From positions 1-60,000 of the forward strand of contig NZ_CP048796.1 of NCBI RefSeq assembly GCF_010748935.1: 60,000 nt of DNA, written 5' to 3'. The notes under the pieces were generated by a model. That model was given only the letters and a program-made list of their open reading frames with translations, was not told where the DNA came from and made no database searches. Positions 15,102-32,221 of this stretch are shown here, one piece after another. Source of the DNA: Providencia vermicola. Lineage in GTDB: Bacteria > Pseudomonadota > Gammaproteobacteria > Enterobacterales > Enterobacteriaceae. Each line of letters begins with the position of its first letter. Positions within the stretch are counted from its first letter, which is position 1. Position numbers and translations under genes: made by a program.

Positions 15102-15135
15102 TGACATTCAAAAATAGCCTATTTTTCTTATACTA

Positions 15136-15191
15136 AAAAAACTGAAGCAGCGCTAAATACATCGTGTCTCTTTTCGTTGTTTCAGTTTTTT
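15136..15191 (+). terminator. Probable nagK terminator
   Basis: AAAAAACTGAA and TTCAGTTTTTT form a perfect 11-bp stem around a 34-base loop. The descending arm supplies its own T run. The hairpin begins 34 bases after the nagK stop; the large loop makes it less typical. Confidence 0.6.
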
Positions 15192-16149
15192 AAATAGCGA
15201 GATCGGGAACCAAAATACCGTAAAACACCCCATTTTAATGATCAAAAAGAGATTCACTCATTCACATTTGGCCTTGTTATTTTTAACAGCGCCTAAACAA
15301 ATATTCCAAATCTATCAATAGATAGATTGATTAAATATTCATTAATGGCAATCTCATCTTCTTTATCAATTGATTATTGTCACCGTTAAAAATGATGTAT
15401 TGGTTTTTAATTAAACCTCAAACATTAATGTTACATACTGTTTTTATTGATTTTTTTTCGTGTTAATCCCAATAAATAAATTTAAATTAATGATTGAGTT
15501 CGTTGACGTTAATCCCTATGAATAACTTAAACATACAGTTAATTATAATATCGCCTCATTTTTAATCAGGCGAAATTTAGCTTAAATAATCAAATAACGC
15601 CATAAGTCATCGCCATTTAATAAATTGATAATAGTCCGTTATATTAATAAAAAAGAGGCGTTATCATCCACATATGAGGGAACAACCATTTAAAATGCCC
15701 TAACGATTAAACAATAAAACATGACTAACTACATCACTATTTTATTAATTGTTTGATTAGAACACACGACCGTCTCTTACTCATTTTGAATTATAAATAA
15801 AGCAAAATAACCATGAATAAATGATTGTTAAGTTTTTTGCCAACTTCATCACAAAAAAATAATTATAATTCATGATTAAATTAAATATGAACTATATGTT
15901 TATTATTGCTAGGGCTCATTAAAATTATTAGTGGCCTTAGCAGAACTTATCGGTTATCAGATAAACCAGTCCTTTTAATCTTTAAATACAGAACATCACT
16001 TATCAGATATTTTCAAAATATCAATTGATTAGTGACTGTGATTATAATGGTAAAAGATAACTCCGATATTATTTAAATAAGCTTTCTGTTTCATCTGATT
16101 AATTAAATCATATGAAATAAAGCATCACATTTAATCAATGAGGTATATC
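15192..16149. other. Long AT-rich non-coding region upstream of the toxin locus
   Basis: Nearly 1 kb has no credible gene. It contains two imperfect 18-base direct repeats beginning GTTAATCCC (15462-15479 and 15508-15525), an inverted repeat AATCTAT-N6-ATAGATT at 15309-15328, and the palindrome/promoter region at 16006-16048. The composition is clearly more AT-rich than the flanking core genes, which fits acquired DNA. Confidence 0.5.
16006..16048 (+). promoter_or_regulatory. Putative toxin promoter with overlapping palindrome
   Basis: A perfect palindrome, GATATTTT-C-AAAATATC, occupies 16006-16022. A consensus -10 hexamer TATAAT is at 16043-16048, so the palindrome touches the expected -35 position near 16020-16025. 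The -35 match itself is weak. This would give a leader of about 95 bases before the toxin start. A regulator is inferred, not identified. Confidence 0.4.
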
Positions 16150-17223
16150 ATGAACTTTAGTCAATCACCTTTAGTCATCAATAATGCAAATAAAAAACAA
16201 TCCAGCTCTGACTTGATTGTACAAAGTAGTTGCCGATCCGTTCTGCAACAGCCATTTGTTAATTTCACTAATAATCCATCATTAATTAACTTACAGCAAG
16301 ATGTCAATTCTGCATTAGGCATAGCAAAAGAAAATTCAAATTATTATCTTGATACTATACAACCAATGATAATTAGTAATATTTCTAGCATTAGTGCTTA
16401 CTATACCATGCATAATTCAATAGCAACCCAAGTTCCAGCGGGAACAAGTATTTCTGATTGGCTAAATATTTTAAGTGCGATTAGAGATCAATCAAAAACA
16501 TATGCAAGTGAGGCGCATATCACTAGCACGCTTTTGTCACAATTTAGTCATAAGTTAGATAATAGTGTATCGAGCTTCTATAGTGTTGTTGATAAATTAA
16601 ACGCCGCTATACTGGGTGATAACGGTGCGCTAGCTCAAAATAGAAATAAATTAATCGATATACAAACACAAATAGCTGTTGATGAGGTAGGTATAACACT
16701 TGGTGCGATAAGTATTGTGGGAGGGCTTATATCGATTGTTGTCGGGATTGCAAGTTCCTTTTTTACCGGAGGCGCAACAATTACCATGGTGATAGGTGGG
16801 GGAGTGGCAATAGCAACGGGTGTTGCTGGTATTACAGGTGCCACATTAAAACTTAAGGGTGACCTTAAATTAAAAGAGATCTTATTAGTTGAGGATGCTA
16901 ATTTGAAAAATGAGGTTAGAGTCGCTCAAGCATGTTCAGCTGGAAATGCACAACTGGCAGTGTGTATATCACAAGCAGCTCAATCTTCACTTGATATGTC
17001 AAATGCATGGGGTTTTCTCTCTAATGATATAGAGAGCCTTATTAATGATCTAAATATGGGGATTATCAGTGGTGATAAGGTTAGAGAGTTATTCTTATCA
17101 AGTGCGAATAACCAAGTTAAGATCGTCTTAAAAGATACTGATATAATTAAATCACAAATGAGTGGTATTGAATATGTCATTAACCCTACAAAGTATACTT
17201 ATGATTTAATTAATGTTAATTAA
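16150..17223 (+). CDS. Probable alpha-helical pore-forming toxin (HBL/Nhe/ClyA-like)
   Basis: I do not recognise a named gene. The 357-residue product is almost entirely helical, with a single long hydrophobic hairpin at about 181-232 (runs of Ile, Val, Gly and Ala with SSFFTGG in the turn) flanked by amphipathic helices. That is the layout of the head domain in HblB/NheB, ClyA-superfamily and related Gram-negative toxin components. Helix features such as DNGALAQNR before the head and a conserved Trp near 287 (NAWGFL) fit. There is no signal peptide. I chose the ATG at 16150 because GAGG lies 6 bases upstream; an ATG 12 bases earlier overlaps that site. A second helical gene follows after 72 bases, and an insertion-sequence relic lies beyond, suggesting horizontal gain. 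Confidence 0.65.
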   Translation: MNFSQSPLVINNANKKQSSSDLIVQSSCRSVLQQPFVNFTNNPSLINLQQDVNSALGIAKENSNYYLDTIQPMIISNISSISAYYTMHNSIATQVPAGTSISDWLNILSAIRDQSKTYASEAHITSTLLSQFSHKLDNSVSSFYSVVDKLNAAILGDNGALAQNRNKLIDIQTQIAVDEVGITLGAISIVGGLISIVVGIASSFFTGGATITMVIGGGVAIATGVAGITGATLKLKGDLKLKEILLVEDANLKNEVRVAQACSAGNAQLAVCISQAAQSSLDMSNAWGFLSNDIESLINDLNMGIISGDKVRELFLSSANNQVKIVLKDTDIIKSQMSGIEYVINPTKYTYDLINVN

Positions 17224-17295
17224 AAGTAAGTACTAAAAATAGCAGTGGAAGTTAATAACATGAAGTAAAATTAACTCAATCATATGGTGAAAAAT

Positions 17296-17898
17296 ATGAA
17301 CATTTTAAGTTATAAAAGCCTAATGTTTAATTATCTAGGTATAATAGGCAAGTACAATAATGCACAATGGAACTTGCCCTTCTATGCCCAAAAAATAATT
17401 GTCTCAATTAATAACTCAATGCTTATATGTGAAAAAATTATTGAGCTTTCATCAGCTCAAATCCAAAATTGGATTAACGAACTTAAATCAATATCCAATT
17501 TTATAAATATGAATGACATATCGAGTTCTCGTGAATCATTATCTAAAATGCAACTTGATTCATCTAATGTCATTAATGGTCTATTGTTACAAATAAGTGT
17601 CCTGAAAGACTGTGTTCATACTATAGAAGACATCATGTCAACACCTGAAGTTTTCTTTGGAGATCCTAAAATTAGCGAACTAAATGAATTTAAAAATGAT
17701 GTGATTGGTTTTTTTAATATTGAAGTCAACTTTCAAGTCTATCTATTTGGATTATTGTCGGATTATAAAACGCTAAATAATATATTTAGCATAAGTATAC
17801 AACCATACAACTATGAACAATATAATTCGATGTCAGTTGTTAAAGTGCAAACCGAAGCATCATTTGTAAAAGTGAAGGAATTAAGATTGTCACTTTAA
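17296..17898 (+). CDS. Unrecognised helical protein, possible toxin partner
   Basis: No family is recognised. The product is about 200 residues from the ATG at 17296, which has GGTGA 5 bases upstream; an ATG at 17284 would add four residues without a ribosome-binding site. It is predicted mostly helical, rich in Asn, Ser, Ile and Leu, without a signal peptide or clear membrane segment. It has two cysteines (in MLICEK and LKDCVH). It shares the AT-rich composition of the preceding toxin-like gene and lies 72 bases after it on the same strand with no obvious terminator. It could be a second toxin component lacking the hydrophobic head, a chaperone or an immunity protein. The sequence does not decide. 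Confidence 0.5.
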   Translation: MNILSYKSLMFNYLGIIGKYNNAQWNLPFYAQKIIVSINNSMLICEKIIELSSAQIQNWINELKSISNFINMNDISSSRESLSKMQLDSSNVINGLLLQISVLKDCVHTIEDIMSTPEVFFGDPKISELNEFKNDVIGFFNIEVNFQVYLFGLLSDYKTLNNIFSISIQPYNYEQYNSMSVVKVQTEASFVKVKELRLSL

Positions 17899-17912
17899 GA
17901 TTTAGGGATCAA

Positions 17913-18180
17913 CGGAGTTTATTGCAAAAGTGCATTAATGTGACGTTATTGCTCATTACTGAGGAGAATAACCATGTCACTGAATGATTTCAAATGGAAG
18001 TATTTTGCGCCCTCTATCACCTTTTGGTGTATACGTAACGATGATTCAATATCTCAGAGCTATACCGATGTTAGTGATATTTTGGCTGAACGAGGCGTTT
18101 TTTCATCGTTCAGCCATTTATCGCTATTTTATCAACGATACTCCGATAGAAGATGTCAGAGATATCAAGTAAATCTGACC
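17913..18180 (+). pseudogene. Decayed 5' end of an IS6-family insertion sequence
   Basis: The stretch from about 17913 looks like an IS6/IS26 left end: it has TTGCAAA inside a terminal-repeat-like GGAGTTTATTGCAAA, then about 60 bases to an ATG at 17974. The translation MSLNDFKWKYFAPSITFWCIR then DVSDILAERGV resembles the start of IS6 transposases. The continuation, RSAIYRYFINDTPIE (compare HSTIYRWVQRYAPE), is in another reading frame, so there is at least one frameshift. The catalytic DDE domain and a right terminal repeat were not found. It is therefore a dead remnant directly downstream of the toxin locus. Confidence 0.65.
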
Positions 18181-18743
18181 CAGTGATGACCTACTGATAG
18201 CGGCGTATAGGTGAACTATTTTCATAATACGAATTAAGTGAAAGATCACCATCGGTCTATTGGCAAATTGTAGGTAAAAATAGCAATGCTTGATGTGAAT
18301 TGGCGAATGTCTAGTTAACCATGAAAATGGATCGGTTTACTGGTTTTTTGAGTCCATAGCACACCGCTAATCTCACTTTTTTCCTTTTAATAATCATTTC
18401 ATTGTTTATCGCTAGAAAAAATATAATCAAAAAAATAACATTATTGTATTAATTAATTTTTCAGACTCTTTTAATCTTACCGCTTCAATAAATTATAATA
18501 TAATCTTACACATTGCTGTTATGATTCATTATCTTTTATTAACAATTAATGGCAAAATAACCTTTATCTAGCCTGTTTTTATCAGTCATTAATGAAATTG
18601 AAAATACTTCATGAATAACTCATAAAAATCAGCCAGATAATAAAGACTAGTCCTATATTGATAATCATTAAATCTAATATGATCAAATTAAAGGTTATAG
18701 TCATCACCAAGTTACAACTCTAAATATTATAGCGAGAACAACT
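18181..18743. other. AT-rich non-coding region upstream of the flotillin operon
   Basis: About 560 bases with no credible gene. It should hold the promoter of the following four-gene cluster. A Fur-box-like segment, TATATT-GATAAT-CATTAAA, at 18654-18672 matches 15 of 19 positions of the Fur consensus, but in AT-rich DNA this may be chance. A weaker similar match is at about 18388-18402. Confidence 0.35.
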
Positions 18744-19382
18744 ATGAGTTTGTTTCTACAAAACTGTCTGGCCTTCCCCGCTGTTCTTTTTAGCGGGTTA
18801 CTGATTATTGTCATGTTTTATTGGGTTTGTGCTGCTTTTGGGTTGTTAGATATTGATTTATTTAATGTCGATACATCGGTAGATAGCGGAGGTTTTGATG
18901 CCACAGGCTTTGCAGGATGGCTGACAAAATTAGGGCTAGCAGGCATTCCAGTCACCATTATTCTCACTCTATTTACACTATTTGGTTGGCTACTGAGCTA
19001 TTTTAGTGTTCATTGGTTTATCCGATTTATTGATATTACCCTGCTACGCTACCTCGTGGGTTTCGTCGTGTTATTGGTCACGGCCTTTATTTCAATTCAT
19101 CTTACTGCCTTATGTCTAAAACCATTACGTGAAAAATTAGCTAAATCCTCTTCCCCAAAAAGCGTAAGCCAATTGATAGGCAAACTTGCAACAGTACGTT
19201 CCGGTGATGTAACTGAGCATCGAGGAGAGGCTATTTTAGAAGATGGTGGTGCCGGTTTGATCTTACAAATTCGCGCCGCTTCAACTGAAAACATAAAGCG
19301 CGGTGACCGCGTTGTCATTATTCGCTATGACGCTGAGTCACACACTTATGATGTGGTGACTGAAGAAGAATTCCGCCGCTAA
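18744..19382 (+). CDS. OB-fold membrane protein of the YqiJ/NfeD-like type
   Basis: The 212-residue protein has three or four membrane helices (about 10-35, 60-88, 92-120) and a C-terminal cytoplasmic beta-rich OB-fold domain (about 140-205, from QLIGKLATVRSGDV to RGDRVVIIRYD). E. coli YqiJ (209 residues) has the same plan and is likewise encoded just before a flotillin. Such NfeD-like proteins are thought to associate with their flotillin partner in membrane microdomains. It is the first gene of the cluster, 59 bases before the flotillin. Its weak ribosome-binding site (GCGAG) is noted. Confidence 0.75.
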   Translation: MSLFLQNCLAFPAVLFSGLLIIVMFYWVCAAFGLLDIDLFNVDTSVDSGGFDATGFAGWLTKLGLAGIPVTIILTLFTLFGWLLSYFSVHWFIRFIDITLLRYLVGFVVLLVTAFISIHLTALCLKPLREKLAKSSSPKSVSQLIGKLATVRSGDVTEHRGEAILEDGGAGLILQIRAASTENIKRGDRVVIIRYDAESHTYDVVTEEEFRR

Positions 19383-19441
19383 TAATCAACAATACTGTAA
19401 TTAGTTAACGACGACATTATCGAAACCCATGGAGAGAAAAT

Positions 19442-21640
19442 ATGGAATTGGCTGAACTAATGCCCTTTTTGACCATTGTCGGGGGCATCATCGTAGTCAT
19501 ACTTGGATTTTTTGGGCTATTTAAAGCCTTCTATATCAAAGTTCCACAAGGAACAGCGCTGATTGTTAACGACATGTCGTCACAGCCAAAAGTTCACTTT
19601 ACTGGTGCTTTAGTTTACCCCGTTATCTACAAAAAAGAGTTTATGAGAATATCTCTCTTAACTTTAGAAGTGGATCGCCGTGGGAAAGATGGCTTGATTT
19701 GCCAAGATAATTTACGTGCTGATATTACCGTTGCCTTTTATTTACGCGTAAATGAAACAACGGAAGATGTACTTAAAGTCGCTAAGGCGATTGGTGTTGA
19801 CCGTGCTTCTGACCATCAAGCCGTAAGCACCTTATTTAGTGCTAAATTCTCAGAAGCACTCAAAACGGTTGGTAAGCAGTTTGAGTTGTCTAAACTTTTT
19901 GAAGATAGACAAAACTTCCGTGATCGTATTGTTGATGTTATCGGTAAAGATCTCAATGGCTATGCGCTTGAAGACGTTGCCATCGACTATTTAGAGCAAA
20001 CACCAAAAGCAGCGCTCGATCCAAATAATATTTTCGACTCCGAAGGTATTCGCAAAATCACTGAAATTACCGCAATCCATAATATTGAAACGAACCAGAA
20101 AGAACGTGACCAAGAACTGGCAATTCAAAAGAAAAATGTGGAAACCCGCGAAGCTAGCTTAGCACTTGAGCGTCAACAAGCCGATGCAGAAGCCCGTCAA
20201 AAACGTGAAATTGAAAATATTCGAGCGCGTGAACAAGCTGAAACATTACGTGTACAAGAAGAAGAACGCTTAAAAGCAGAACAAGCACGGATTCAAACTC
20301 AACAAGAAATTGAAATCCGTGAAGAAAACCGTATGCGTGAAGTTGAAGTTGCTCAACAAAACCGTACCCGTGCTGTCACTATCGAAGAAGAGCGAGTCAA
20401 ACGCGCTCGTGACCTTGAAATTGTTGCTCGCGAACGTGAAGTTGAACTACAACGCATTGAAAAAGAAAAAGCATTAGAAGAAGAACGCAAAAATATTTCT
20501 AATGTCATTCGCGAACGTGTGGTGGTAGAAAAAAGTGTTGCTCAAGAAGAAGAGCGTATTAAAGAAGTTCGTGAAATTTCAGAAGCCGATCGTTTAAGAC
20601 AAGTCACTGTCATTAACGCTCAAGCAGAAGCGGAAGAATCCTTAGTACGTCAAGTGAAGAAAGCGGAAGCCGACGAGGCAAGTGCTAAACACAAAGCTGA
20701 AGAGATCAGTACCATGGCTCAAGCCGAGCTTGAAGCCTCAGCAAAACAAGCAGAAGCCAAAAAACGCTTAGCAGAAGGGATTGAAGCAGAACATGCAGCA
20801 TTAGGCTTAGCCGAAGCACGAGTACGTCAAGCGGCGGCAGAAGCGGAAGAAAAAGAAGGGTTAGTACAAGCTAACATCACAGCAGAAAAACTCCTTGCCG
20901 AAGCGAGAGGCTTAAAAGAAAAAGGCTTAACAGAAGCGCAAGTGAGGGAGGCGATGGCGCTAGCAGAGCAACAACAGGGCTTTGCTGAAGCGAAAATCCT
21001 TGAAGAGAAATTAACAGCGCAAGCGCGTGGTGAAGAGCAACAAGCGAATGCGAAAGAGAAATTAGGTCTGGCGGATGCAAAAGTACTTGAAGAAAAACTG
21101 GCCGCACAAGCTCGCGGTGAAGGCCAATTAGGTGCTGCACAAGCCGAAGTCATTCGTCAGCGTCTAAAAGCAGAAGCTGATGGCTTGACGGATAAGTTCC
21201 AATCTATGGATCACCTCAGTGATACAGCTCGCGCCCACGAAGAATTCCGTATGCGTCTTGAGAAAGAGTTTGAACAATCTATGGCTTCAATTGCCGCAAA
21301 TAAAGAAATTGCTCGCGAACAAGCCGATGTACTGGCAGCAGCCTTAACCAAGACAAATATCGAAATTGTTGGCGGAGATGGTAGCTTCTTTAATACCTTC
21401 TCTAAAGCACTTAGCTTAGGCAAAGCCGTTGATGGCTTTATGGATAAAAGCAGTTTTGCGAAGGAGAGTGTCGAAAAGCTGATCAACCGTAAAGACGATA
21501 AAAAAATCGACATCGCCGCTTTGCTAAAAAACCCAGAGGTTCAAGATCTAATTAATGGGTTTATGGCTGTAAAAGGTGCAGGTCAACAGGTAAAAACTGT
21601 CACAGCAAAACCTGAAAACCAAAGCGATAATCAACTCTAA
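19442..21640 (+). CDS. Flotillin/SPFH-domain protein, YqiK-like with long coiled coil
   Basis: Flotillins are oligomeric scaffolds of membrane microdomains. This 732-residue protein has one N-terminal membrane segment (about 9-30), an SPFH domain (about 30-200), a very long charged coiled coil (about 210-580), and a C-terminal tail with few charges around 640-700. It is longer than E. coli YqiK (553 residues). Within 473-572 are degenerate repeats of the type GLADAKVLEEKLAAQARGE (542-560) and GFAEAKILEEKLTAQARGE (513-531), spaced 29 residues apart, so part of the extra length comes from internal duplication. GGAGAG precedes the ATG. A 201-base gap separates it from the ATPase gene. Confidence 0.85.
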   Translation: MELAELMPFLTIVGGIIVVILGFFGLFKAFYIKVPQGTALIVNDMSSQPKVHFTGALVYPVIYKKEFMRISLLTLEVDRRGKDGLICQDNLRADITVAFYLRVNETTEDVLKVAKAIGVDRASDHQAVSTLFSAKFSEALKTVGKQFELSKLFEDRQNFRDRIVDVIGKDLNGYALEDVAIDYLEQTPKAALDPNNIFDSEGIRKITEITAIHNIETNQKERDQELAIQKKNVETREASLALERQQADAEARQKREIENIRAREQAETLRVQEEERLKAEQARIQTQQEIEIREENRMREVEVAQQNRTRAVTIEEERVKRARDLEIVAREREVELQRIEKEKALEEERKNISNVIRERVVVEKSVAQEEERIKEVREISEADRLRQVTVINAQAEAEESLVRQVKKAEADEASAKHKAEEISTMAQAELEASAKQAEAKKRLAEGIEAEHAALGLAEARVRQAAAEAEEKEGLVQANITAEKLLAEARGLKEKGLTEAQVREAMALAEQQQGFAEAKILEEKLTAQARGEEQQANAKEKLGLADAKVLEEKLAAQARGEGQLGAAQAEVIRQRLKAEADGLTDKFQSMDHLSDTARAHEEFRMRLEKEFEQSMASIAANKEIAREQADVLAAALTKTNIEIVGGDGSFFNTFSKALSLGKAVDGFMDKSSFAKESVEKLINRKDDKKIDIAALLKNPEVQDLINGFMAVKGAGQQVKTVTAKPENQSDNQL

Positions 21641-21716
21641 TTAAGATGATAATTCAAAGGCATATACTATATCCTTTAGGTAACAAGTCATGTTGTTGAT
21701 GTCGATGTAAAAGGTA

Positions 21717-21749
21717 GCCCAAGAACTTAGACATTTAAGTGACTTGGGC
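21717..21749 (+). other. Hairpin in the gap between flotillin and ATPase genes
   Basis: GCCCAAG and CTTGGGC pair, and inside them ACTTA pairs with TAAGT, with a small internal loop. No T run follows, so it does not look like an intrinsic terminator. It could be an mRNA-stability or processing element that sets different levels of flotillin and ATPase. Confidence 0.4.
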
Positions 21750-21841
21750 CACTAAATACAAATACATCAACCTTATATTGGCTTGAAGTATCACCTGTAT
21801 ATGTCTTGTGTTTTTGTTATAGCCAAGGAAATCAGCGATAC

Positions 21842-24800
21842 ATGTCAATTCAGGAAACAGATCACGAGCAGGAAATACTGGATAGCGCGGTTGCACAAGG
21901 TGGCGCATATGAAATATTACGCAAACGCCTCACCGAGCAAGGGCAACAGCTTCATCAAAAAGCAGTGCAGCTCAATGACAGTCGTTTGCAAGAGTTCGGC
22001 CAAAGCCAAATGGATATTATTGGTCGTATCCGTATTCGCACAGAAAACAATTGCCAAGCAAGGGATATTGTTCGTGTCGGTGAATGGCTTCTGTTTGGTT
22101 ATAACGTCTTCTTAGGTCTCAAAAAAGAAACCCACATTGAAGATGTGTTTTCACTGTATCGGCTAATCGATAACCACGGTGAATTTGATGTTGAAGAAGC
22201 CCCTTATGAAGGGACATTCCTGAGTGATCCTCGCTTTACCCAAGACTTTACTGAATTATATACCTACTACAAAAATACCCAACTGCTACAGCTCGTCGAG
22301 CGTGATGGAAAACTGTTAGCTAGTTTCCAAATTGGCGATCGTATCACCGATGTCAGGGTCTTCCGCTGGTCTATCTCCAGTGATAAAAGCAAAATCGACT
22401 ATATCGATAACCGGGGTGAACGTGATATCGCACTACCTCCAGCCTATGATTTCGAATGGGTTAAAACCACGCGTGAAAATACGGTAAATGGCCGATTTCC
22501 ACATATTAATATTTTAGATACCGTCTTCGTCGAAACTATCGGGGGTGATCTCACGATTAAGTGTGAAAATAACACGGAAGATGGTCTCGGAATTTATCGA
22601 GAAGCGGTTTTAGATAAAAACCAATCCCTCGATGATGCGCAGATTGAATATGCTCAAACTGGCAGCCTTATCTTATTAAAGATATTACCTTATCGGGAAG
22701 AAAGTTGGCGCTATCTCGTTTACAACACGCTCACTCAAACCGTTCAACGGATTGATGCTATTGGCCAAGCATGTGTGCAGTTACCTGAAGATCACGGCAT
22801 TATTTTCCCTGGTGGCTATTATCTACAAAATGGTGAATACAAAACCTTTGACCAACCCATGGATGGCATGCGCTTTCGCCGTTTACGTCGCTCCCCCAAT
22901 GGTGAAGATGTTCTCTATGTGTTTTATTCACCAAATCAAGGCCGCATTGCCTTATTTAACTACAACTTGATTGAGCGAAAACTGGCTATTCCGCTGATCG
23001 GGCATGGTTATGCCATGCTTGAAGATGGAAAAATGGTGTTATTTGAAGGTGAAGGAGATGAAGCCACTCGTGTTCATCCTATGCAAGTCTGGCAAACACC
23101 GTTTTATTCCGAAGAATTTGCAGATCAACAACCTCCACGTAGTGGCTTTTTTGGCCGCATTGGTAATGCTGACCTTGTGCGCGGTATTTCAGAAATCTTA
23201 CATATCGCCAAAGAAATTGAAGGTAATCAAGTTTCCGTTACCCGTTACGAACAACTGAGCCAGCAGCCCAAAAACTTGCTGGATATCTATTATTGGTTCA
23301 ATGACGAACCGTGTTTAGGTATTGGTAAATTACTCAAAGAGATCACGCAAACTAGCGAATTGGTTTTAGATGAGTATGAGAAAGTCGAGAGTATCCGCCA
23401 GCAATCAGCAAAATCGATGAGCGAAGCGGTTAGTCGACAAAAATCGTTGATTTCTTTAACCCTTCCTGAAAGCTGGGATGATATTCAACAGTTTGTTGAT
23501 GGGTTAAATGCACTGAGTGCACAGCGTGGTCATCTGATTTCTCTACGCGAATTCCGTTATATGGATTTAGCAAAGCTCGCACAAATGGAAGAGGAAATCA
23601 CCGAAGCGCAGCAATATGTTTCCCAATCGACAGCGACGTTCCTAGCCAGTGACAAAGCGCTACAACCGTTTAAAACGCAACTCGCTACGTTTGAAGAACA
23701 GGTGGAGAACGCCCAAAATAGCGCTCAGTTAGATATCCCAATGAATGGCATGGAAAAAATGTCTGCCGACTTGGATATGCTATCGAACTTAATGGCCTCT
23801 CTAAAATTTGACGATGTGACCCAGCAAACCCATATTATTGATGCTATTTCACAAATTTATGCTCAATTAAATCAGTCTCGCGCTCGCTTACAACAAAAAC
23901 GTAAATCCCAAAGCAGTGTTGAAACGGTCGCCCAATTCGGCGCACAATTCCGCTTATTCAGCCAAGGTATTACCAACGCGCTCTCTCTTTCTACAGATCC
24001 TGAACGTTGTGATGACCAATTGTCACGATTATTAGTGCAGTTAGAGGAATTAGAAAGCCAATTCAGTCATCATGATCAATTTCTCGATGATATTCTCTCT
24101 AAGCGCGAAGAGTTGTTAGAAACCTTTGAATCACACAAGCAAACGCTACTGGATGAACGCCAGCGCCGTTCACAAAATTTACAAACCGCAGCAGAGCGTT
24201 TATTAGAAAGTCTACAGCGTCGTACTTCACGCTTGCAGTCACAAGATGAACTCAATGCCTTTTTTGCTTCTGATCCATTAGCAGCAAAAACCCGCGAAAT
24301 CATTGAAAAGCTGAGGGAAATCAACGATAACGTCAAGGCTGACGATATTGATGCTAAATTGAAGGCCGCACGTGACCAAGCAATTCGTACACTGAGAGAT
24401 AAAACAGATATATTTGAAGATGGCGGTAATGTCATTAAATTAGGGCCTCGCCATCGCTTTAGCGTTAATACCCAAGAGCTTGATTTAACCATTTTACCTA
24501 AAGATAACCAGCTTTGGTTGTATCTCACAGGAACAGATTTCCAAGAACCGATAGATAATCCACAGTTATCCAAATTGCAGCCTTATTGGACTGCAATGCT
24601 TGAATCTGAATCGGATAATGTGTACAGAGCTGAATATCTTGCCTATTCAATTATCTATGCAGCAAGCAAACGCCAAGATGGACTCGACTATAATAGTCTC
24701 AAGTCAGCGTTATCTGTACCAGAGAAACTAGAAAAAATTGTCCGTGACTTCGCAGCTCCCCGCTATAAAGAAGGTTACGAAAAGGGAATTCATGATCATG

Positions 24801-26779
24801 ACGCTATAGCGATTTTGAAAAAGTTAATTCCGGTTGGTGAAAGTGCCGATTTACTGCGTTATAACCCAACATCGCGAGCAATTGCGGCGATTTTCTGGGA
24901 AAAAATGCAATCTCATGATTACCCAGCACTGTGGCCAGAACGTGCCAGAACAGCGATGAATATTCAGCAATTATTTCACAATGATGATGCGTTACTGGAT
25001 TTACAAGCTGAAATTGAGGCTGATATTAGCCTCTTTCTACAAGAACACCCTATCGCATGTGAAAGCTATCAACAAACTCAGGCAGCAGAGTATCTCAGTT
25101 TTGCTTTAGCGCGCACCCCTATCGAGTTAGTTTACAGTAAATATGCACGTGACTTAGTCGTCGCCTTACAGAGTCGATTAGAAGAAGCACATATGTGGAT
25201 CGATTTTAATCGTTCACAACAGAACCTTTCAGATCGCTATGCTCAGCGCTGGGCCTTGATTCAAAATTGGTTAAAAGGGTTATGCTCAAATTCAGAATTT
25301 GCCCATCTCACGCCTTATATTCCTGGCGCAATCGCCATTATTATCTTAGATAAGGTCGCTTCTGCACGTTATAGTGAGGCGGATCTCTATTTCAAAGTGA
25401 GTGGTTTGCTTGGCGAGCATCCAATGATTGAGAACCAAACGCTGTCATTGAGCTTAGATAACTATTTCAGTCGCATGCGTCAGCAGAGAAAGCAATTTAT
25501 ACCGGCATTCCGTGAGTACCAAGCCCTACGCCAACGCATTGTTATTGATGAACGTCGTCGTTTGAAGTTGCATGAATTCAAAGCACGCCCGTTAAGCTCT
25601 TTTGTACGCAATAAGCTCATTAATGATGTCTATTTACCCATTATCGGCGACAATATGGCAAAACAAATCGGTGCTCTCGGTGAGGGCAAACGTACCGACT
25701 TGATGGGCCTACTTTTAATGATCTCCCCGCCGGGCTACGGAAAAACGACGCTCATGGAGTATGTTGCTGACCGTCTAGGCCTAATTTTCATGAAAATTAA
25801 CGGCCCTGCATTAGGTCATGAAGTGTTATCGCTCGACCCTGAACAAGCTCCCAATGCAACCGCAAGACAAGAGCTAGAAAAACTCAATTTAGCCTTAGAA
25901 ATGGGCAATAATGTCATGCTGTATGTTGATGATATTCAGCATACCCATCCAGAGTTCTTACAGAAATTTATTTCTTTGTGTGATGGCACAAGACGCATTG
26001 AAGGGGTTTGGAAAGGAAAAACCAAAACATATGATATGCGCGGGAAAAAATTCTGTGTTGTTATGGCGGGTAACCCCTATACAGAATCCGGTGAAGTGTT
26101 CCGCATACCTGACATGCTTGCAAACCGAGCTGATATCTATAATTTAGGGGAAGTCCTTGGTGGCATGGATGATGCCTTTGCATTAAGCTACATTGAAAAC
26201 AGTTTAACTTCAAATTCAGTATTGGCTCCACTTGCCTTACGTGACCTGAATGACCTCTACCTGCTCGTAGATAAGGCTATGGGGAAATCAATCTCCACCA
26301 ATGCGTTAAACTACCCTTATTCAGATGCAGAAATCAGTGAGATCGTTGCAGTGATTAAGCATCTAATCACCTTGCGGGATATCGTGCTTAAAGTAAATCA
26401 GCAATATATCGCGAGTGCTGCGCAATCCGATAAATATCGAACTGAACCCGCCTTCCGCCTACAAGGTAGCTATCGCAACATGAATAAATTAGCTGAAAAA
26501 GTTTCATCCGTTATGAATGAGGAAGAACTTGAGCGTTTATTAGATGATCACTACCTAGGTGAAGCGCAATTACTCACGACAGGGGCTGAAGAGAATTTAC
26601 TCAAACTAGCCGAGATCAGAGGTAGGCTTACTGAACAAGAAGCTGCGCGTTGGCAACAAATCAAGAAAGACTTCATGCGCAATAAAGCACTTGGTGGAGA
26701 TAATGCCGATATTGGTGATCGAGTTGTTGCCCAACTCGCCGATCTGGTTGAAAGCGTACAAGCACTAGGCCAGCACTGA
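21842..26779 (+). CDS. Giant coiled-coil AAA ATPase (DUF3686-type, labelled DNA repair ATPase)
   Basis: This 1645-residue protein belongs, as far as I can judge, to the DUF3686/AAA family often labelled DNA repair ATPase without experimental basis. The N-terminal ~450 residues are beta-rich with repeating short strands. A coiled-coil region spans about 500-855. A helical middle follows, then an AAA module with Walker A ISPPGYGKTT at 1294-1303 (Lys1301) and Walker B VMLYVDD ending at Asp1363-Asp1364. The ring part shows AGNPYTESGEVFRIPDMLANRAD, like MoxR-type AAA proteins. I chose the ATG at 21842 (MSIQETDHEQ), with AAGGAA about 12 bases upstream, over a TTG at 21806. Its stop overlaps the rhomboid start. 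Its role in the cluster is unknown. Confidence 0.75.
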   Translation: MSIQETDHEQEILDSAVAQGGAYEILRKRLTEQGQQLHQKAVQLNDSRLQEFGQSQMDIIGRIRIRTENNCQARDIVRVGEWLLFGYNVFLGLKKETHIEDVFSLYRLIDNHGEFDVEEAPYEGTFLSDPRFTQDFTELYTYYKNTQLLQLVERDGKLLASFQIGDRITDVRVFRWSISSDKSKIDYIDNRGERDIALPPAYDFEWVKTTRENTVNGRFPHINILDTVFVETIGGDLTIKCENNTEDGLGIYREAVLDKNQSLDDAQIEYAQTGSLILLKILPYREESWRYLVYNTLTQTVQRIDAIGQACVQLPEDHGIIFPGGYYLQNGEYKTFDQPMDGMRFRRLRRSPNGEDVLYVFYSPNQGRIALFNYNLIERKLAIPLIGHGYAMLEDGKMVLFEGEGDEATRVHPMQVWQTPFYSEEFADQQPPRSGFFGRIGNADLVRGISEILHIAKEIEGNQVSVTRYEQLSQQPKNLLDIYYWFNDEPCLGIGKLLKEITQTSELVLDEYEKVESIRQQSAKSMSEAVSRQKSLISLTLPESWDDIQQFVDGLNALSAQRGHLISLREFRYMDLAKLAQMEEEITEAQQYVSQSTATFLASDKALQPFKTQLATFEEQVENAQNSAQLDIPMNGMEKMSADLDMLSNLMASLKFDDVTQQTHIIDAISQIYAQLNQSRARLQQKRKSQSSVETVAQFGAQFRLFSQGITNALSLSTDPERCDDQLSRLLVQLEELESQFSHHDQFLDDILSKREELLETFESHKQTLLDERQRRSQNLQTAAERLLESLQRRTSRLQSQDELNAFFASDPLAAKTREIIEKLREINDNVKADDIDAKLKAARDQAIRTLRDKTDIFEDGGNVIKLGPRHRFSVNTQELDLTILPKDNQLWLYLTGTDFQEPIDNPQLSKLQPYWTAMLESESDNVYRAEYLAYSIIYAASKRQDGLDYNSLKSALSVPEKLEKIVRDFAAPRYKEGYEKGIHDHDAIAILKKLIPVGESADLLRYNPTSRAIAAIFWEKMQSHDYPALWPERARTAMNIQQLFHNDDALLDLQAEIEADISLFLQEHPIACESYQQTQAAEYLSFALARTPIELVYSKYARDLVVALQSRLEEAHMWIDFNRSQQNLSDRYAQRWALIQNWLKGLCSNSEFAHLTPYIPGAIAIIILDKVASARYSEADLYFKVSGLLGEHPMIENQTLSLSLDNYFSRMRQQRKQFIPAFREYQALRQRIVIDERRRLKLHEFKARPLSSFVRNKLINDVYLPIIGDNMAKQIGALGEGKRTDLMGLLLMISPPGYGKTTLMEYVADRLGLIFMKINGPALGHEVLSLDPEQAPNATARQELEKLNLALEMGNNVMLYVDDIQHTHPEFLQKFISLCDGTRRIEGVWKGKTKTYDMRGKKFCVVMAGNPYTESGEVFRIPDMLANRADIYNLGEVLGGMDDAFALSYIENSLTSNSVLAPLALRDLNDLYLLVDKAMGKSISTNALNYPYSDAEISEIVAVIKHLITLRDIVLKVNQQYIASAAQSDKYRTEPAFRLQGSYRNMNKLAEKVSSVMNEEELERLLDDHYLGEAQLLTTGAEENLLKLAEIRGRLTEQEAARWQQIKKDFMRNKALGGDNADIGDRVVAQLADLVESVQALGQH

Positions 26780-27357
26780 TGATGAAGCAATGGCTAAGTC
26801 AGCGTTTAAAATTACTCGCTATTTTAGCTGGGCTATTGGTTATCATCCAAGTAATCAATAGCCTAACCGATTATGCTCTCACGCGCTTCGGTATTATCCC
26901 GCGAGAGGTAAATAGTTTAATCCGTATTCCACTTGCCCCCTTTATTCATGGTAGTTGGGGGCATTTACTGAGTAACCTACCACCTTTACTGATCCTCAGT
27001 GCAATCCTTATGCATAGAACTATTCGTGAATATGTATATGCCTCATCATTTATTATTATTACCAGCGGATTAGCGGTTTGGCTGGTTGGTCGCTATGCCA
27101 TCCATGTGGGTGCAAGTGGTTGGATTTTTGGGCTTTGGGGACTACTGATTGCTCAAGGCTTCTTTAGACGCCAACTTGTCGATATCCTCATTGCATTATT
27201 GGTACTCTTTTATTTTGGTGCCATGGCAGCAGGCTTACTCCCTATTCATCAATATATTTCGACTGAGTCACATATAGCTGGTGCAATATCCGGCATTTTC
27301 TATGCTTGGTGGATTAATCGCCGTAAAAAAAAGCCCCTTTCATCTACAGAACGCTAA
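26779..27357 (+). CDS. Rhomboid-family intramembrane serine protease
   Basis: The 192-residue protein has about six membrane helices. It carries the rhomboid hallmarks HGSWGHLLSN (57-66), GASG with catalytic Ser113, and SHIAGAISG with catalytic His165. Rhomboids cleave membrane-protein substrates within the bilayer. The start ATG overlaps the ATPase stop codon by one base (TGATG), so translation is probably coupled. This is not the well-known Providencia AarA rhomboid, which is longer (about 280 residues). An alternative start is the next codon, also ATG. The substrate is unknown; the neighbouring flotillin and OB-fold membrane protein are candidates by context only. Confidence 0.85.
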   Translation: MMKQWLSQRLKLLAILAGLLVIIQVINSLTDYALTRFGIIPREVNSLIRIPLAPFIHGSWGHLLSNLPPLLILSAILMHRTIREYVYASSFIIITSGLAVWLVGRYAIHVGASGWIFGLWGLLIAQGFFRRQLVDILIALLVLFYFGAMAAGLLPIHQYISTESHIAGAISGIFYAWWINRRKKKPLSSTER

Positions 27358-27365
27358 TTTACAGC

Positions 27366-27387
27366 TAATGTGATTAGATTCACTTTT
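27366..27387. promoter_or_regulatory. CRP-cAMP site upstream of penicillin acylase
   Basis: TGTGA-TTAGAT-TCACT matches the CRP consensus TGTGA-N6-TCACA at 9 of 10 core positions. It starts 9 bases after the rhomboid stop and is about 140 bases before the acylase start. Catabolite control is known for the E. coli pac gene, so this fits. Confidence 0.7.
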
Positions 27388-27523
27388 AATATTTTTTTAT
27401 TTTTTATGTATCCTTTTTTATCTACTTAGTTCACATATTAATAATTTAACCATTATTTAACCCTTTATTTACAAATTAGTGATTGTTAGTCTCGTAATAC
27501 AATAAAAAATGGAGGCTCATCTG

Positions 27524-30040
27524 ATGAAGAAAAATAATATATTATCTGCAATGGTTATTTTTGGATTCGCAACACTTGCATCCACCAGCTACGCTGAACC
27601 GAATAAAATAAAGATAGATCGTGATAGCTACGGTGTTCCACATATCTATGCAGATGATGTTTATAGTCTTTTTTATGGTTATGGCTATGCCGTCGCCCAA
27701 GATAGACTTTTCCAAATGGAAATGGCCAAACGCAGTACACAAGGCACGGTTTCGGAAGTACTAGGTAAAGATTTCATTGCTTTTGACAAAGATATCCGCA
27801 GTAATTACTGGCCAGATTCTATCCATCAACAGATCGACAATCTTCCCAAAAAAGAACAAGATATTCTACGAGGCTACGCCGATGGCATGAACGCGTGGAT
27901 AAAACAAGTCAATACCACACCTGATAAACTCATGCCTAAACAGTTCATGGATTATGGTTTTACCCCCTCTCAATGGAACAGTTTTGATGTTGCTATGATT
28001 ATGGTCGGTACCATGGCTAACCGTTTCTCTGATATGAATAGTGAAATCGATAATTTAGCCTTATTAACCGCCTTAAAAGATAAATATGGTGAACAAAAAG
28101 GGTTAGCGGTATTCAACCAAATAAATTGGCTGAATAATCCTAATGCCCCCACCACTATTGACGCTCAAGAATTCACTTATCTAGATACAAAAAATAAAAA
28201 CAATCAATCACAGGTGAATCAAATAGGTGATTATCGCCTAATGCCGCCGATGTTTGAACGTCCTGCTAAAGACGCCTCTGGCAAATTAATCGCATTAACA
28301 ACACAGCAAAATAGTCAATTGATAGCCAAACAATATGCGCAAAGTGGTGCAAATGGCTTAGCGGGTTATCCAACAACAAGTAATATCTGGGTTGTCGGGA
28401 AAGCAAAAGCTGATGGCGCCAATGCAATTTTGCTAAACGGCCCACAATTTGGTTGGTTTAATCCTGCTTATACCTACGGGATTGGTTTACATGGCGCTGG
28501 TTTCGACTTAGTGGGTAACACCCCCTTCGCCTATCCCGCCATATTATTTGGTCATAATGGCAATATCGCGTGGGGATCAACGGCTGGCTTTGGGGATGGC
28601 GTTGATATATTTGCAGAAAAATTGGACCCACAACGCCCTGATTATTATCAACACCAAGGCCAATGGAAAAAAATGCTCAGCCGCCAAGAGATAATTAATG
28701 TGAAAGATGCCCCGTCCGTTACATTAGATATTTATCGAACGGTGCACGGTAATGTCATGAAAACAGATGATAATGCCAATATCGCGTACAGCAAGGCACG
28801 TGCATGGGATGGAAAAGAGGTCTCCTCTTTAATGGCATGGGTAAAACAAGCACAAGCCAAAAATTGGCAACAATGGCAAAATCAGGCACAGAACCAAGCC
28901 TTAACCATTAATTGGTATTATGCAGATAAAGACGGCAATATTGGTTATATCCATACTGGGCATTATCCTGAACGCCAAGAAAATCATGACCCTCGACTCC
29001 CCGTTCCCGGCACTGGTGAATGGGACTGGAAAGGCATGCAGCCCTTTGCTAATAACCCGAAAGTGTACAACCCTAAATCGGGTTATATTGCTAACTGGAA
29101 TAATTCCCCAGCAAAAAATTACCCCGCGAGTGACTTGTTTGCGTTTTTATGGGGATCTGCTGATCGCGTCACAGAAATCAATAAGCTAATAGAATCAAAG
29201 CATCTGTTAAATCAAGAGGACATGTGGGATATTCTAAAACAGACGAGTCGTGTTGACCTGAATCATCGCCTATTTACCCCTTATATTCTGCGTGCGACAC
29301 GCGATTTACCTGCCGATGACGATGCCGTAAAACTTGCATCTATTCTTAACCAATGGAATGGAATTAATTATCTTTCAAAAGAGGGCAAACATTATATTCA
29401 ACCAGGCTCAGCAATATTGGATATTTGGCTAAAAGAGATGCTAAAAGCCACGCTGGGCCAAACAGTCCCCGCTCCTTTTGATAAATGGTATTTAGCCAGT
29501 GGCTATGAAACAACACAAGAAGGTCCTACAGGCTCGTTAAATATTAGTACAGGCGCAAAAATCTTATATGAATCATTATTAGGGCAACAATCTGCTATTC
29601 CACAAGCTATTGACCTATTTTCAGGGAAATCACAAGATGATGTTATTCGCCAAGCATTACGTACAACTTATCAGCAAATGACCCAGCAATATGGTCATCA
29701 TCCTGCGAGTTGGCAAACTCCAGCGACAGCACTAACTTTTAGAGCCAATAATTTCTTCGGTGTTCCTCAAGCTAGTAGCGCAGAAAGTCTACACCAAAAT
29801 GAATATCATAATCGAGGAACCGAAAATGACTTGATTGTGTTTACCGACGATAAGGTGAAAGCTTGGGATGTTGTTGCTCCAGGACAAAGCGGTTTTATTT
29901 CACCGCAAGGAAAACCATCTCCTCATTATCAAGACCAATTATCCCTTTATGAACAGTTTGAAAAAAAACCATTGTGGCTCACTGCTGAAGAATTAGCTCC
30001 CCATATCGAAACCAGTGAATTGATTGAAGTTACAAAATAG
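27524..30040 (+). CDS. pac: Penicillin G acylase precursor
   Basis: This periplasmic Ntn-hydrolase removes the phenylacetyl side chain of penicillin G and related phenylacetamides. I chose the ATG at 27524 ([10 protein letters not shown]) because GGAGG lies 8 bases upstream, giving 838 residues (E. coli precursor 846). The signal peptide is about 1-24, cleaved after TSYA. The alpha chain follows, then a spacer removed by self-processing, then the beta chain starting at the nucleophile Ser286 in [12 protein letters not shown] and running to 838. The conserved [16 protein letters not shown] and NWNNSP segments are present. The gene is monocistronic between a CRP site and a strong terminator. 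The natural role is thought to be use of aromatic amides. Confidence 0.97.
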
Positions 30041-30051
30041 TCTCTCAACAT

Positions 30052-30086
30052 GGCCGAGAGCAAACTCTCGGCCTTTATTTTATTTT
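30052..30086 (+). terminator. Terminator of the penicillin acylase gene
   Basis: GGCCGAGAG and CTCTCGGCC form a perfect 9-bp stem around a CAAA tetraloop, followed by TTTATTTTATTTT. It starts 12 bases after the acylase stop, and its T tract runs into the end of the convergent regulator gene. Confidence 0.92.
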
Positions 30087-30737
30087 CTGAATACGGTAAA
30101 CACAGCGCCCACCACCATTGAGTAAATACTGCTCTCGCTCAATCGTAACTTCATCGCCCATAATTTCACGAAATAATTGTAATTCGGAGCGACAAAAATT
30201 TTGGCAAACAGTCGCCGCAGCACAGATTGGGCAATGGTTTTCAATTAATAACCAACTGTCCCCCTCTTGTTCAATACGTGCCATATAACCCTCTTCACTA
30301 CGAATATCGGCTAATGCCTGTAGTCGTTCAATAAAAGGTCGCTGTGCACAACGAGATAGATATTTGGTTTTAATTGCACTTTCTCTTTGGCTAATCAGTT
30401 TTTCTAGCCCTTCATTCCCAAAAATACTTTTTACTGAATCAATGAGCTGCAACGTAAGCTGTGCATGCGTATCTGGAAAACGCTGATGTCCTAATTCAGT
30501 CAGCACCCAATTCTGCCTCGGTCGACCAGCACCTGTTTGAGAAGTGCACTGCACCCCCTCAACTAAACCTAGTGATAGCAATTTTTGAAGATGTTGGCGG
30601 ACAGCTTCCCCCGTCATGGCTAAGTCTTTTGCAATCACAGCGGTTGAGATAGGCGCTTTAGTTTTGATACAAAACAACACTTTATCAACCGCTTGGCTGA
30701 GATTTAAATTATCAAAGTAATTACTTGCATTAATCAT
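30075..30737 (-). CDS. HTH regulator with a probable iron-sulfur cysteine cluster
   Basis: The 220-residue protein has an N-terminal winged helix (about 12-85, with a TGEAVRQHLQKLLSLGLVE recognition region and a GRPRQNWVLT wing). Its C-terminal domain holds Cys169-x2-Cys172-x5-Cys178-x3-Cys182. That layout matches the COG2345/SufR-like regulators, some of which bind an Fe-S cluster. Extra cysteines are at 23, 64, 130 and 212. It is divergent from an MFS transporter, and a perfect 11-bp inverted repeat lies between the two starts, so it probably controls itself and the transporter. The signal it senses is inferred to be redox or iron status, not shown. Confidence 0.75.
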   Translation of the reverse strand: MINASNYFDNLNLSQAVDKVLFCIKTKAPISTAVIAKDLAMTGEAVRQHLQKLLSLGLVEGVQCTSQTGAGRPRQNWVLTELGHQRFPDTHAQLTLQLIDSVKSIFGNEGLEKLISQRESAIKTKYLSRCAQRPFIERLQALADIRSEEGYMARIEQEGDSWLLIENHCPICAAATVCQNFCRSELQLFREIMGDEVTIEREQYLLNGGGRCVYRIQKIK

Positions 30738-30747
30738 GATGCCACTC

Positions 30748-30775
30748 TAATATCCAAGCTAATACTTGGATATTA
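30748..30775. promoter_or_regulatory. Operator palindrome between regulator and MFS gene
   Basis: TAATATCCAAG and CTTGGATATTA are perfect inverted repeats separated by six bases (CTAATA). The element begins 10 bases from the regulator start and ends 36 bases before the MFS start. It is the obvious binding site for the divergent HTH regulator. Confidence 0.8.
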
Positions 30776-30811
30776 ACTTTTTTTTAACTCTCTCGTCTAG
30801 CAGGTCTCGCT

Positions 30812-32221
30812 ATGAGCAATGATCCATCAACGACAAATCAAGCCAAATGGGCTGATTTACTCAGTGGCACTAATGCATTACTGACTATCGCCCTTACTGG
30901 TGGTGTCGCACTCCATGCGATCAACATTTATATCGTTACAACGATTCTTCCGAGCATTGTCAATGATATCGGTGGCCTAGAATATTATGCATGGAATACC
31001 ACCATATTTGTTGCCACCTCTATTGTCGGCTCAACATTATCAAGCAAAATCCTCAACCAATTAGGACCTAAATTTGCTTATTTAACCGCCTTATTTTTAT
31101 TTTCATTAGGGTCGATTTGGTGTGCCGCTTCCCCTTCAATGCTAACGTTACTTGTCGGACGTGCGCTTCAAGGGCTAGGGGGCGGTATTTTATTTGCCTT
31201 AAGCTATGCATTAATTCGCATTGTTTTTACCGAAAATCTCTGGTCACGTGCTATGGGGGTCGTTTCCGGTATGTGGGGAATTGCCACGCTCTGTGGGCCT
31301 GCAATTGGTGGGATATTTGCCCAAGGTGGACATTGGCGCTGGGCTTTTTGGTCATTATTGCCAGTTGCTGTTTTTCTTACTTTAATTGTTATTAATCAAT
31401 TACCTAAAAAAACAAACCAACAACCACAAACCAGTAAATTGCCTTTTCTTGCTATTACATTATTAGTTGCTTCTGTGTTAGCGATTTCGATCGGAAGTTT
31501 ATCTCAAGAACTCATATTTAATGTCGTGGGTCTGCTAGTTGGCATCACCATGCTAATTACCATTGCTCTCATTGATGGTAAGCAAGGTAAACGCTTACTC
31601 CCTACAGGCACTTATTCATTCAAAAATCCGCTTGCTATCATTTACTTAACGATGAGTTTACTGGTTGGTGGTATGACAACGGAAATTTATGTCCCTTATT
31701 TCTTACAAACTATCCATCAATTTTCTCCATTATCAGCAGGTTATCTCACCGCAATTATGGCCGCAGGTTGGACAATTGGCGCATTACTCAGTGCGAATAA
31801 AACGGGGCCACTCGTATTAAAAATACTTCGTTTAGGCCCAATTATTATATTTATCTCATTAATCTTACTGGCTATTTTAACGCCTAATACAAAATTAGTG
31901 GATTCAATACTTCTGTTTGCCATCTATTTAATTGCCATGATGGGAGTTGGTCTAGGAATTGGTATTTGCTGGCCACATCTTGTTTTAAAGGTTTTTAACG
32001 TCGCCCCTAACGGCGAAGAGAATCTTGCATCCTCATCAATTATTACCGTTCAACTGTACGCAACAGCACTATCAGCAGCATTAGTTGGTGTAGTCGTCAA
32101 TAATAGTGGACTTATTAGCCCTGGAGGGTTAGCTGGAGCCCAACAAGCTTCAATCTGGTTATTTGCGCTATTTGCTATTTGCCCCTTCTTTGGTGCATTA
32201 CTCATCAGAAAGATTCAATAA
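30812..32221 (+). CDS. MFS multidrug transporter, DHA2-like
   Basis: The 469-residue membrane protein has about 13-14 predicted helices. It shows VTTILPSIVNDIGG in helix 1, the GRALQGLGGGILFALSYALI motif in helix 4, and motif C GMWGIATLCGPAIGG in helix 5, typical of proton-driven drug exporters. The start ATG has AGG 8 bases upstream. It is transcribed divergently from the cysteine-rich regulator across a strong operator and ends at a hairpin. The substrate is not evident. Confidence 0.82.
   Translation: MSNDPSTTNQAKWADLLSGTNALLTIALTGGVALHAINIYIVTTILPSIVNDIGGLEYYAWNTTIFVATSIVGSTLSSKILNQLGPKFAYLTALFLFSLGSIWCAASPSMLTLLVGRALQGLGGGILFALSYALIRIVFTENLWSRAMGVVSGMWGIATLCGPAIGGIFAQGGHWRWAFWSLLPVAVFLTLIVINQLPKKTNQQPQTSKLPFLAITLLVASVLAISIGSLSQELIFNVVGLLVGITMLITIALIDGKQGKRLLPTGTYSFKNPLAIIYLTMSLLVGGMTTEIYVPYFLQTIHQFSPLSAGYLTAIMAAGWTIGALLSANKTGPLVLKILRLGPIIIFISLILLAILTPNTKLVDSILLFAIYLIAMMGVGLGIGICWPHLVLKVFNVAPNGEENLASSSIITVQLYATALSAALVGVVVNNSGLISPGGLAGAQQASIWLFALFAICPFFGALLIRKIQ

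Follow-up and report, generated by a model that had tools for sequence, protein, structure and literature searches.

Four neighbouring genes of Providencia vermicola raise the question of which of them act together, and of whether the largest, which encodes a giant AAA+ ATPase, serves DNA at all or rather the membrane. The genes lie in the stretch analysed here (positions 1 to 60,000 of contig NZ_CP048796.1, hereafter the window) and encode, in order, a YqiJ/NfeD-like membrane protein, a long flotillin, the ATPase of the DUF3686 family, and a short rhomboid protease. The original prediction, made from the letters alone, described four same-strand genes with intact Walker A and B motifs, intact rhomboid residues, and an overlap of the ATPase and rhomboid genes; the open reading frames (all four on the plus strand) with their translations, the family scans, and the alignments bear this out. 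It further supposed that the four might be one machine with the rhomboid as a regular part. Our answer is that the first three genes (the trio) are the unit, and that the rhomboid is an optional accessory, separable from it.

The trio and the flotillin tail module

ATPase loci were drawn from 21 genome contigs, a gammaproteobacterial class sample (10 of 369 genomes), relatives (29 of 60), a phylum sample (8 of 398, 4 of them already known), the phylum to which an Akkermansiaceae locus belongs (17 of 194, counting the genome of that locus), and records of plasmids (12 of 72,556, including two Proteus chromosomes entered as such). Seventy loci were read: the window, the 21 contigs, 9 others from the class, 4 new ones from the phylum sample, 16 of the 17 from the Akkermansiaceae phylum (the seventeenth, L023, was already among the contigs), 10 of the 12 plasmid records (leaving out Proteus), and 10 of 28 other relatives, one of which, G139, is counted with the class hits; loci L080 and L016 belong to one genome. 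Neighbouring genes were called with profiles built from the ATPase loci themselves. The YqiJ-like gene, the flotillin, and the ATPase occur in this order and on one strand in 63 of the 70, in five phyla. The full trio is missing from L067, L101, L102, L103, L026 (degraded), L088 (whose contig ends 2.2 kb upstream), and L113 (flotillin present, no YqiJ found). No ATPase turned up in 20,395 E. coli records when 3991 bases were searched at the nucleotide level, an approach that may overlook distant copies; an E. coli control likewise showed no DUF3686.

The strongest sign that the ATPase and this subclass of flotillins work as a pair is a one-to-one occurrence. The flotillins of the trio carry near their C-terminus a module some 100 residues long, whose consensus IdIVGG..FF is a motif present in 62 of 64 ATPase-linked flotillins. 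A profile of the module, built from 15 flotillins and run on the same 369-genome class sample as the ATPase, finds it in 10 genomes, precisely those that have the ATPase (G000, G139, G143, G218, G233, G240, G256, G352, G365, and G367; Fisher 9e-20, genomes taken as independent). Only three of the ten (G000, G139, G143) had supplied rows to the profile; the other seven contributed none. One of the seven, G233, has its ATPase on contig C429 (locus L067), where the 6 kb read upstream contain no flotillin, and the module on contig C400. (The same L067 has a 714-residue open reading frame of unrecognised kind upstream of the ATPase.) Among plasmids, a query with the window's module returns 10 records and one with a Streptomyces module 11, and their union is exactly the 12 ATPase records; as a control, the SPFH half of the flotillin matches 318. 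The pairing, for which the counts come from a single class sample and a single collection of plasmids, upholds the predicted link of the ATPase to flotillin and NfeD genes. Because module and ATPase coincide so exactly, we propose the module as a candidate contact point, or docking site, for the ATPase.

The pair YqiJ-YqiK of E. coli shares with the trio an NfeD-like protein and a flotillin in the same order, but YqiK (553 residues) ends in the Pfam family Flot (6.4e-41), has no match to the module, and adjoins neither an ATPase nor a rhomboid. An unfiltered single-sequence search with the last 153 residues of YqiK (E up to 10) recovers not one of the 64 flotillins linked to an ATPase. When the final 200-232 residues of ten such flotillins, the window's included, were scanned against Pfam, all stayed below the 27-bit cut-off of Flot.

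The trio itself has been reached before, starting from PspA: Ravi et al. (2024) report, in the parts of their paper available here, the same trio together with its PspA link (PMC11237479). Their operon class has the same three genes, the SPFH/flotillin gene adjoining a YqiJ-like gene, and a novel AAA+ ATPase with coiled coil and beta-propeller; an abbreviated form without PspA is also described (PMC11237479). The large N-terminal extension of the AAA+ protein that marks this class is seen in the window as DUF3686 plus AAA, going by gene position. The CesT/Tir-PspA dyad of the full form is not among the window's neighbours, the genome's sole PspA lying elsewhere, and the paper allows for the abbreviated form. 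The word "rhomboid" has no occurrence in its main text, and the available parts do not set these flotillins apart, whereas here their tail pairs one-to-one with the ATPase (PMC11237479). It would appear that this special C-terminal module, and its one-to-one relation to the ATPase, is what is new here.

A setting of the phage shock protein (PSP) type, and with it the role in envelope stress that was previously an open hypothesis, is supported by a same-strand pspA gene in 16 of the 63 trios; yjfI accompanies 12. Several trios resemble in this the BAC cluster of Pseudomonas aeruginosa, which combines yjfI, pspA, an NfeD-like gene, and a flotillin (from bacA, which is yjfI-like, and bacB, pspA-like, to paFlo3) but for which the accessible portions of the reports tell of no ATPase or rhomboid (PMC10948618, PMC13086221). 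The same portions describe an effect of the bac cluster on biofilm (PMC10948618), which for the flotillin PaFlo3 is only about 20% (PMC13086221). On plasmid pQBR103 (L104, 4-13208), yjfI, pspA, a rhomboid, DUF2491, DUF350, DUF1190, and glutathionylspermidine synthase stand in one array with the trio; a P. amygdali plasmid (L117) has only the first part of it, with the rhomboid apparently in pieces.

The rhomboid and its separability from the trio

The rhomboid could be an integral fourth part, cutting a substrate presented by the flotillin and the ATPase, as in the mitochondrial SPY hub (SLP2-PARL-YME1L), which joins an SPFH protein, a rhomboid, and an AAA enzyme according to the available part of PMC13365137. 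In the window the ATPase stop codon TGA (26777-26779) and the rhomboid ATG have one base in common. The protein matches the Rhomboid family (6.2e-19, Pfam scan), and its catalytic residues are intact, the serine of the GxSG motif (Ser113) and the C-terminal histidine (His165) being invariant in ten rows, the window and nine others. Outside Providencia the rhomboid neighbours the ATPase in four loci (L075, L084, L017, and L027; genomes G394 and G595 and two metagenome-assembled genomes), and it occurs in the pspA operons of G418 (between pspA and yqiJ), pQBR103 (after pspA), G348, and G800. A single clade of all linked rhomboids is rejected (p 6.6e-5), and the rhomboid has therefore joined such operons more than once, which would speak for a functional tie. 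In the best tree the ATPase-adjacent rhomboids (without those of G418 and pQBR103) form one clade with the Proteus copy, although this grouping (93/90) is not firm.

The counts make an obligatory fourth part unlikely. Such a rhomboid is present in the stretch read of 20 of the 70 ATPase loci and was not seen in the other 50, five of which end at most 0.8 kb downstream of the ATPase (L023, L086, L087, L088, and L101); two of these five, from G600 and G548, have no such rhomboid in the whole genome. Fourteen of the 20 are from Providencia (one genome counted twice, one rhomboid truncated), so that outside this genus the rhomboid is linked in 6 of 56 loci (G394, G595, L017, L027, G418, and pQBR103). 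With a profile built from ten linked copies, the family is found in 73 of the 369 class genomes. It is present in 3 of the 10 that have the ATPase and in 70 of the 359 that lack it, an overlap no greater than chance (Fisher p 0.42). Sixty-five of the 75 match rows were read (left out were nine weak rows after or near G253, and G189), with at most about 7 kb of flanking sequence, less at contig ends and 1.5 kb for the window's own, and only one of the 64 other rhomboid loci, that of G348, stands in a PspA-type operon. Outside the 70 loci, such a rhomboid was found in yjf-type PspA operons of G348, the P. amygdali plasmid (in pieces), and G800. The proposed check of flotillin co-occurrence thus had a divided outcome, passed by the ATPase and for the most part failed by the rhomboid, and the idea of a regular fourth part is not sustained.

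Losses and separations among close relatives tell the same, and it is because of these, in Providencia, Proteus, and Xenorhabdus, that we take the trio as the unit. The order in Providencia, with variations, is asd, a ROK kinase, the trio, the rhomboid, a SufR-like gene, and a major facilitator superfamily gene; in all 12 other Providencia loci compared the kinase precedes the trio, which makes this one conserved chromosomal place. In G371 (L170) the trio is missing and the rhomboid follows directly after the ROK kinase, but the junction (L170, 11440-11500) retains the last bases of the ATPase gene. Since G371 also nests inside Providencia (100/99), it must have deleted the trio and kept the rhomboid intact. 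In G379 a frameshift splits the ATPase and the rhomboid is still present; conversely, G387 has an intact trio and a rhomboid truncated ahead of its histidine. Four Proteus genomes keep both, but apart, and two Xenorhabdus genomes (one with the trio intact, one degraded) have no such rhomboid.

These same loci invite the doubt whether the trio in Providencia merely sits between the ROK kinase and an unrelated rhomboid. The kinase and the rhomboid are direct neighbours in Proteus (L118, L172) as they are in G371, and most rhomboid-bearing class genomes do without the ATPase. That G371 lost its trio, rather than having been without one from the start, and that the adjacency of ATPase and rhomboid recurs in four loci outside the genus, both argue against mere coincidence of place; we regard this explanation as a serious possibility, but a doubtful one. 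Insertion of the trio between two old neighbours, kinase and rhomboid, is rejected for G371 on the nesting and the ATPase remnant, and is open for Proteus.

The Proteus trios (L012, L021, L022, and L024) stand at another place than those of Providencia, the one of P. mirabilis (L021) beside LemA and TPM-domain genes. Proteus ATPases nest in those of Providencia, a Providencia clade without Proteus being rejected (approximately unbiased test, p 0.0046), while the flotillin rows do not reject such a clade (p 0.33); the position of the Proteus ATPases suggests that the trio moved between the two genera without the rhomboid. Distances correlate with those of the ATPase for the flotillin (r 0.935), YqiJ (0.956), PspA (0.828), and the rhomboid (0.965; 136 pairs, mostly Providencia near-copies), but get no weight, since shared ancestry alone yields such values.

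The window rhomboid is the third of its genome, and since the other two are longer, an identity with either of those we presume to be AarA and GlpG is rejected. It also has a weak likeness to rhombosortase (TIGR03902), rejected at 33.8 bits against a cut-off of 84. In another genome (G403; L171, 7527-10478) a rhomboid of this family lies at the asd-glmS place without the trio, beside a weak GIDE match that is below cut-off.

A candidate motor for a membrane scaffold

The ATPase matches DUF3686 (5.6e-202), DUF7902 (1.5e-25), and AAA_5 (1.3e-5) in the Pfam scan. Across 17 rows (the window and 16 relatives) its Walker A motif SPPGYGKTT is invariant and its Walker B (YVDDIQ) nearly so, the core YVDD having Asp at what we take to be the usual place of Glu. 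AAA, AAA_22, AAA_5, and RuvB_N each match all 17 members, with AAA and AAA_5 over cut-off in the window row; the PDB sequence matches listed (60 of 89) lie around Walker A, and the N-terminal half has none. Because several families match this one region, we leave the AAA+ subfamily undecided; to our eye the GNP in sensor 1 gives it a MoxR-like look, which we offer as an opinion.

Does the label carried in public records, and echoed in the Pfam description, then have any basis? Weak RuvB matches of the P-loop part (17 of 17 members, but below cut-off in the window row; 0.0039 in PDB) could be cited for a DNA-repair enzyme, but that stretch resembles Cdc48-type ATPases to a similar degree, and no nuclease or DNA-binding domain over a cut-off was found in the ATPase by the family scans. 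A second hint comes from Shewanella: in the available part of the report, a mutant lacking the flotillin SO1377 (assigned to COG2268, with DUF1449 next to it) had a changed iron balance, was more sensitive to peroxide, and yielded 100 times more gentamicin/kanamycin-resistant colonies; Gao et al. attribute their mutants to iron and oxidative damage (PMC1468410). Membrane-scaffold genes alongside in 63 of 70 loci point elsewhere, and the earlier remark that the context lends the label no support holds good. A repair function seems to us extremely improbable.

We lean instead, with some reserve, towards reading the trio as a membrane-scaffold remodelling machine of the PSP kind, a flotillin-NfeD scaffold with a dedicated AAA+ remodeller and no need of the rhomboid. 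At the inner face of the cytoplasmic membrane, the flotillin and the YqiJ/NfeD-like protein would assemble into a cage or patch. The giant ATPase would be the dedicated motor of this scaffold, docking on the C-terminal module of the flotillin and spending ATP to pull out, remodel, or take apart the proteins gathered on the scaffold; candidate substrates are stressed membrane proteins, PspA polymers, and flotillin polymers. Such a system would belong with the membrane-stress responses of PspA type, and the rhomboid, where a lineage has added it, might clear membrane proteins at the same platform. Parts of this have precedents: SPFH cages around an AAA+ enzyme are known from FtsH-HflK/C (available part of PMC13365137), and that complex and the SPY hub share with the trio an SPFH scaffold and an AAA+ enzyme (SPY also a rhomboid), in parts only. 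FtsH and YME1L are membrane-anchored proteases, whereas family scans found no peptidase family in the window ATPase, which in this differs from the AAA+ member of SPY.

Several observations weigh against this reading. Five ATPase loci with at least 4 kb read upstream have no flotillin detected beside the ATPase (L026, which is degraded, L067, L101, L102, and L103), and only for L067 (G233) is a flotillin known elsewhere; 47 of the 63 trios lack a same-strand pspA in the stretch read. Co-occurrence of module and ATPase is no proof of contact, and the tail may not be wholly new: five of ten tails weakly match Flot positions 1 to 50-60 (best 18.6 bits, 0.0021, in L068; none in the window's), and Ravi et al. 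speak of a "flotillin" domain at the C-terminus of proteins of this sort (available part of PMC11237479). Given the weak partial matches, the tail may be that of a flotillin after much divergence, or it may be of another kind. In P. aeruginosa, deleting flotillins has little effect, by the accessible text of PMC13086221. Finally, one common transcript is not established, because the gap between flotillin and ATPase (201 bases, 21641-21841) holds a strong hairpin; gap and hairpin allow separate expression.

A role of the trio in phage defence or plasmid conflict, left open by the original prediction, would suit its patchy spread, its plasmid copies, and the possible transfer between Providencia and Proteus, as far as the ATPase tree supports one and the flotillin rows do not. 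It fares badly otherwise: PADLOC has no match for the four proteins, the ATPase is absent from 50,697 phage records searched, 23 of 24 genomes of the window's genus match it (one ATPase broken), its chromosomal place is conserved, and the annotated neighbours, which were not scanned for defence genes, are pspA and yjfI rather than known defence genes. We consider such a role very unlikely.

Bolder, and in our judgement rather improbable, is an extension of the scaffold-motor reading in which the module would be a private code coupling scaffold to motor, one flotillin subclass with a docking module existing only where the DUF3686 ATPase occurs, and the rhomboid-joined sets would be a convergent counterpart of the mitochondrial SPFH-rhomboid-AAA hub. 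The function of bacterial flotillins has long been an open question, P. aeruginosa deletions having weak phenotypes in the part of PMC13086221 available, and a subclass tail that pairs one-to-one with one AAA+ ATPase offers flotillins a concrete candidate partner and interface. If the reading is true, "membrane-scaffold motor" would replace "DNA repair ATPase" as a label, and bacteria, through the repeated recruitment of a rhomboid, would have a simple counterpart to the membrane quality-control hub of mitochondria. In the open-access literature searched, no paper was found on DUF3686 or on "DNA repair ATPase" together with flotillin; combinations of rhomboid, PspA, and flotillin, or of flotillin, rhomboid, NfeD, and AAA ATPase, matched papers on other matters, judged by title and start of abstract.

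Anatomy of the locus and its surroundings

Table 1. Features of the trio and rhomboid locus in the window (positions in NZ_CP048796.1)
Feature	Position	Strand	Remarks
YqiJ/NfeD-like membrane protein, first trio member	18744-19382	+	212 residues; N-terminal half hydrophobic by eye
Long flotillin	19442-21640	+	732 residues; SPFH domain at the N-terminus, then a long middle that looks coiled-coil-like by eye, and a C-terminal module of its own
Flotillin C-terminal module (IdIVGG..FF), proposed ATPase docking site	21191-21535	+	motif and profile search
Hairpin GCCCAAG...CTTGGGC in flotillin-ATPase gap	21717-21749	+	possible attenuator or processing site
DUF3686 AAA+ ATPase	21842-26779 (from ATG)	+	1645 residues; public-record label "DNA repair ATPase"
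Walker A SPPGYGKTT of ATPase	25724-25750	+	alignment; position worked out by hand
Walker B core YVDD of ATPase	25922-25933	+	alignment; position worked out by hand
Short rhomboid protease, optional accessory	26779-27357	+	192 residues; six transmembrane helices presumed
Rhomboid catalytic Ser113 (GASG)	27115-27117	+	invariant in 10 of 10 rows
Rhomboid catalytic His165	27271-27273	+	invariant in 10 of 10 rows

The open reading frame list places the ATPase start at an upstream TTG (21806); the ATG of Table 1, with AAGGA ahead of it by eye, is the most likely start. P. stuartii and other Providencia have the closest ATPases, and the window genome has in all one DUF3686 ATPase, six Band_7 genes, three rhomboids, and one PspA. 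The YqiJ-like protein has no Pfam match above a cut-off, and a profile of its relatives matches E. coli YqiJ at 1.8e-16. With the flotillin at full length, a Pfam scan returned nothing; Band_7/SPFH is found at 2.4e-7 with the first 220 residues alone and at 3.9e-7 in the genome search.

Hairpins recur in the flotillin-ATPase gap across the Morganellaceae loci (the window and 16 others) despite changing sequence. The mean folding z over these 17 loci is -2.68, against -0.32 in the yqiJ-flotillin gap, with L016 an outlier at +0.68. Some of the hairpins are followed by T runs and look terminator-like by eye; the window's own is not listed by a terminator scan of the window, and positions 15000-31000 have no Rfam match to E 0.5. 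The hairpin may be an attenuator that holds the amount of ATPase below that of the scaffold, and separate transcription is an equally possible explanation.

Upstream of the trio (16138-17898) are two genes resembling subunits of alpha-pore-forming toxins. The first matches Bacillus_HBL (1.5e-22), with a MakA match far below cut-off, and the second matches no family over a cut-off; among the 12 other Providencia loci compared, only L014 has such a pair ahead of the trio. Downstream, the rhomboid is followed by a penicillin acylase gene (27509-30040), which is in the same place in 4 of the 12.

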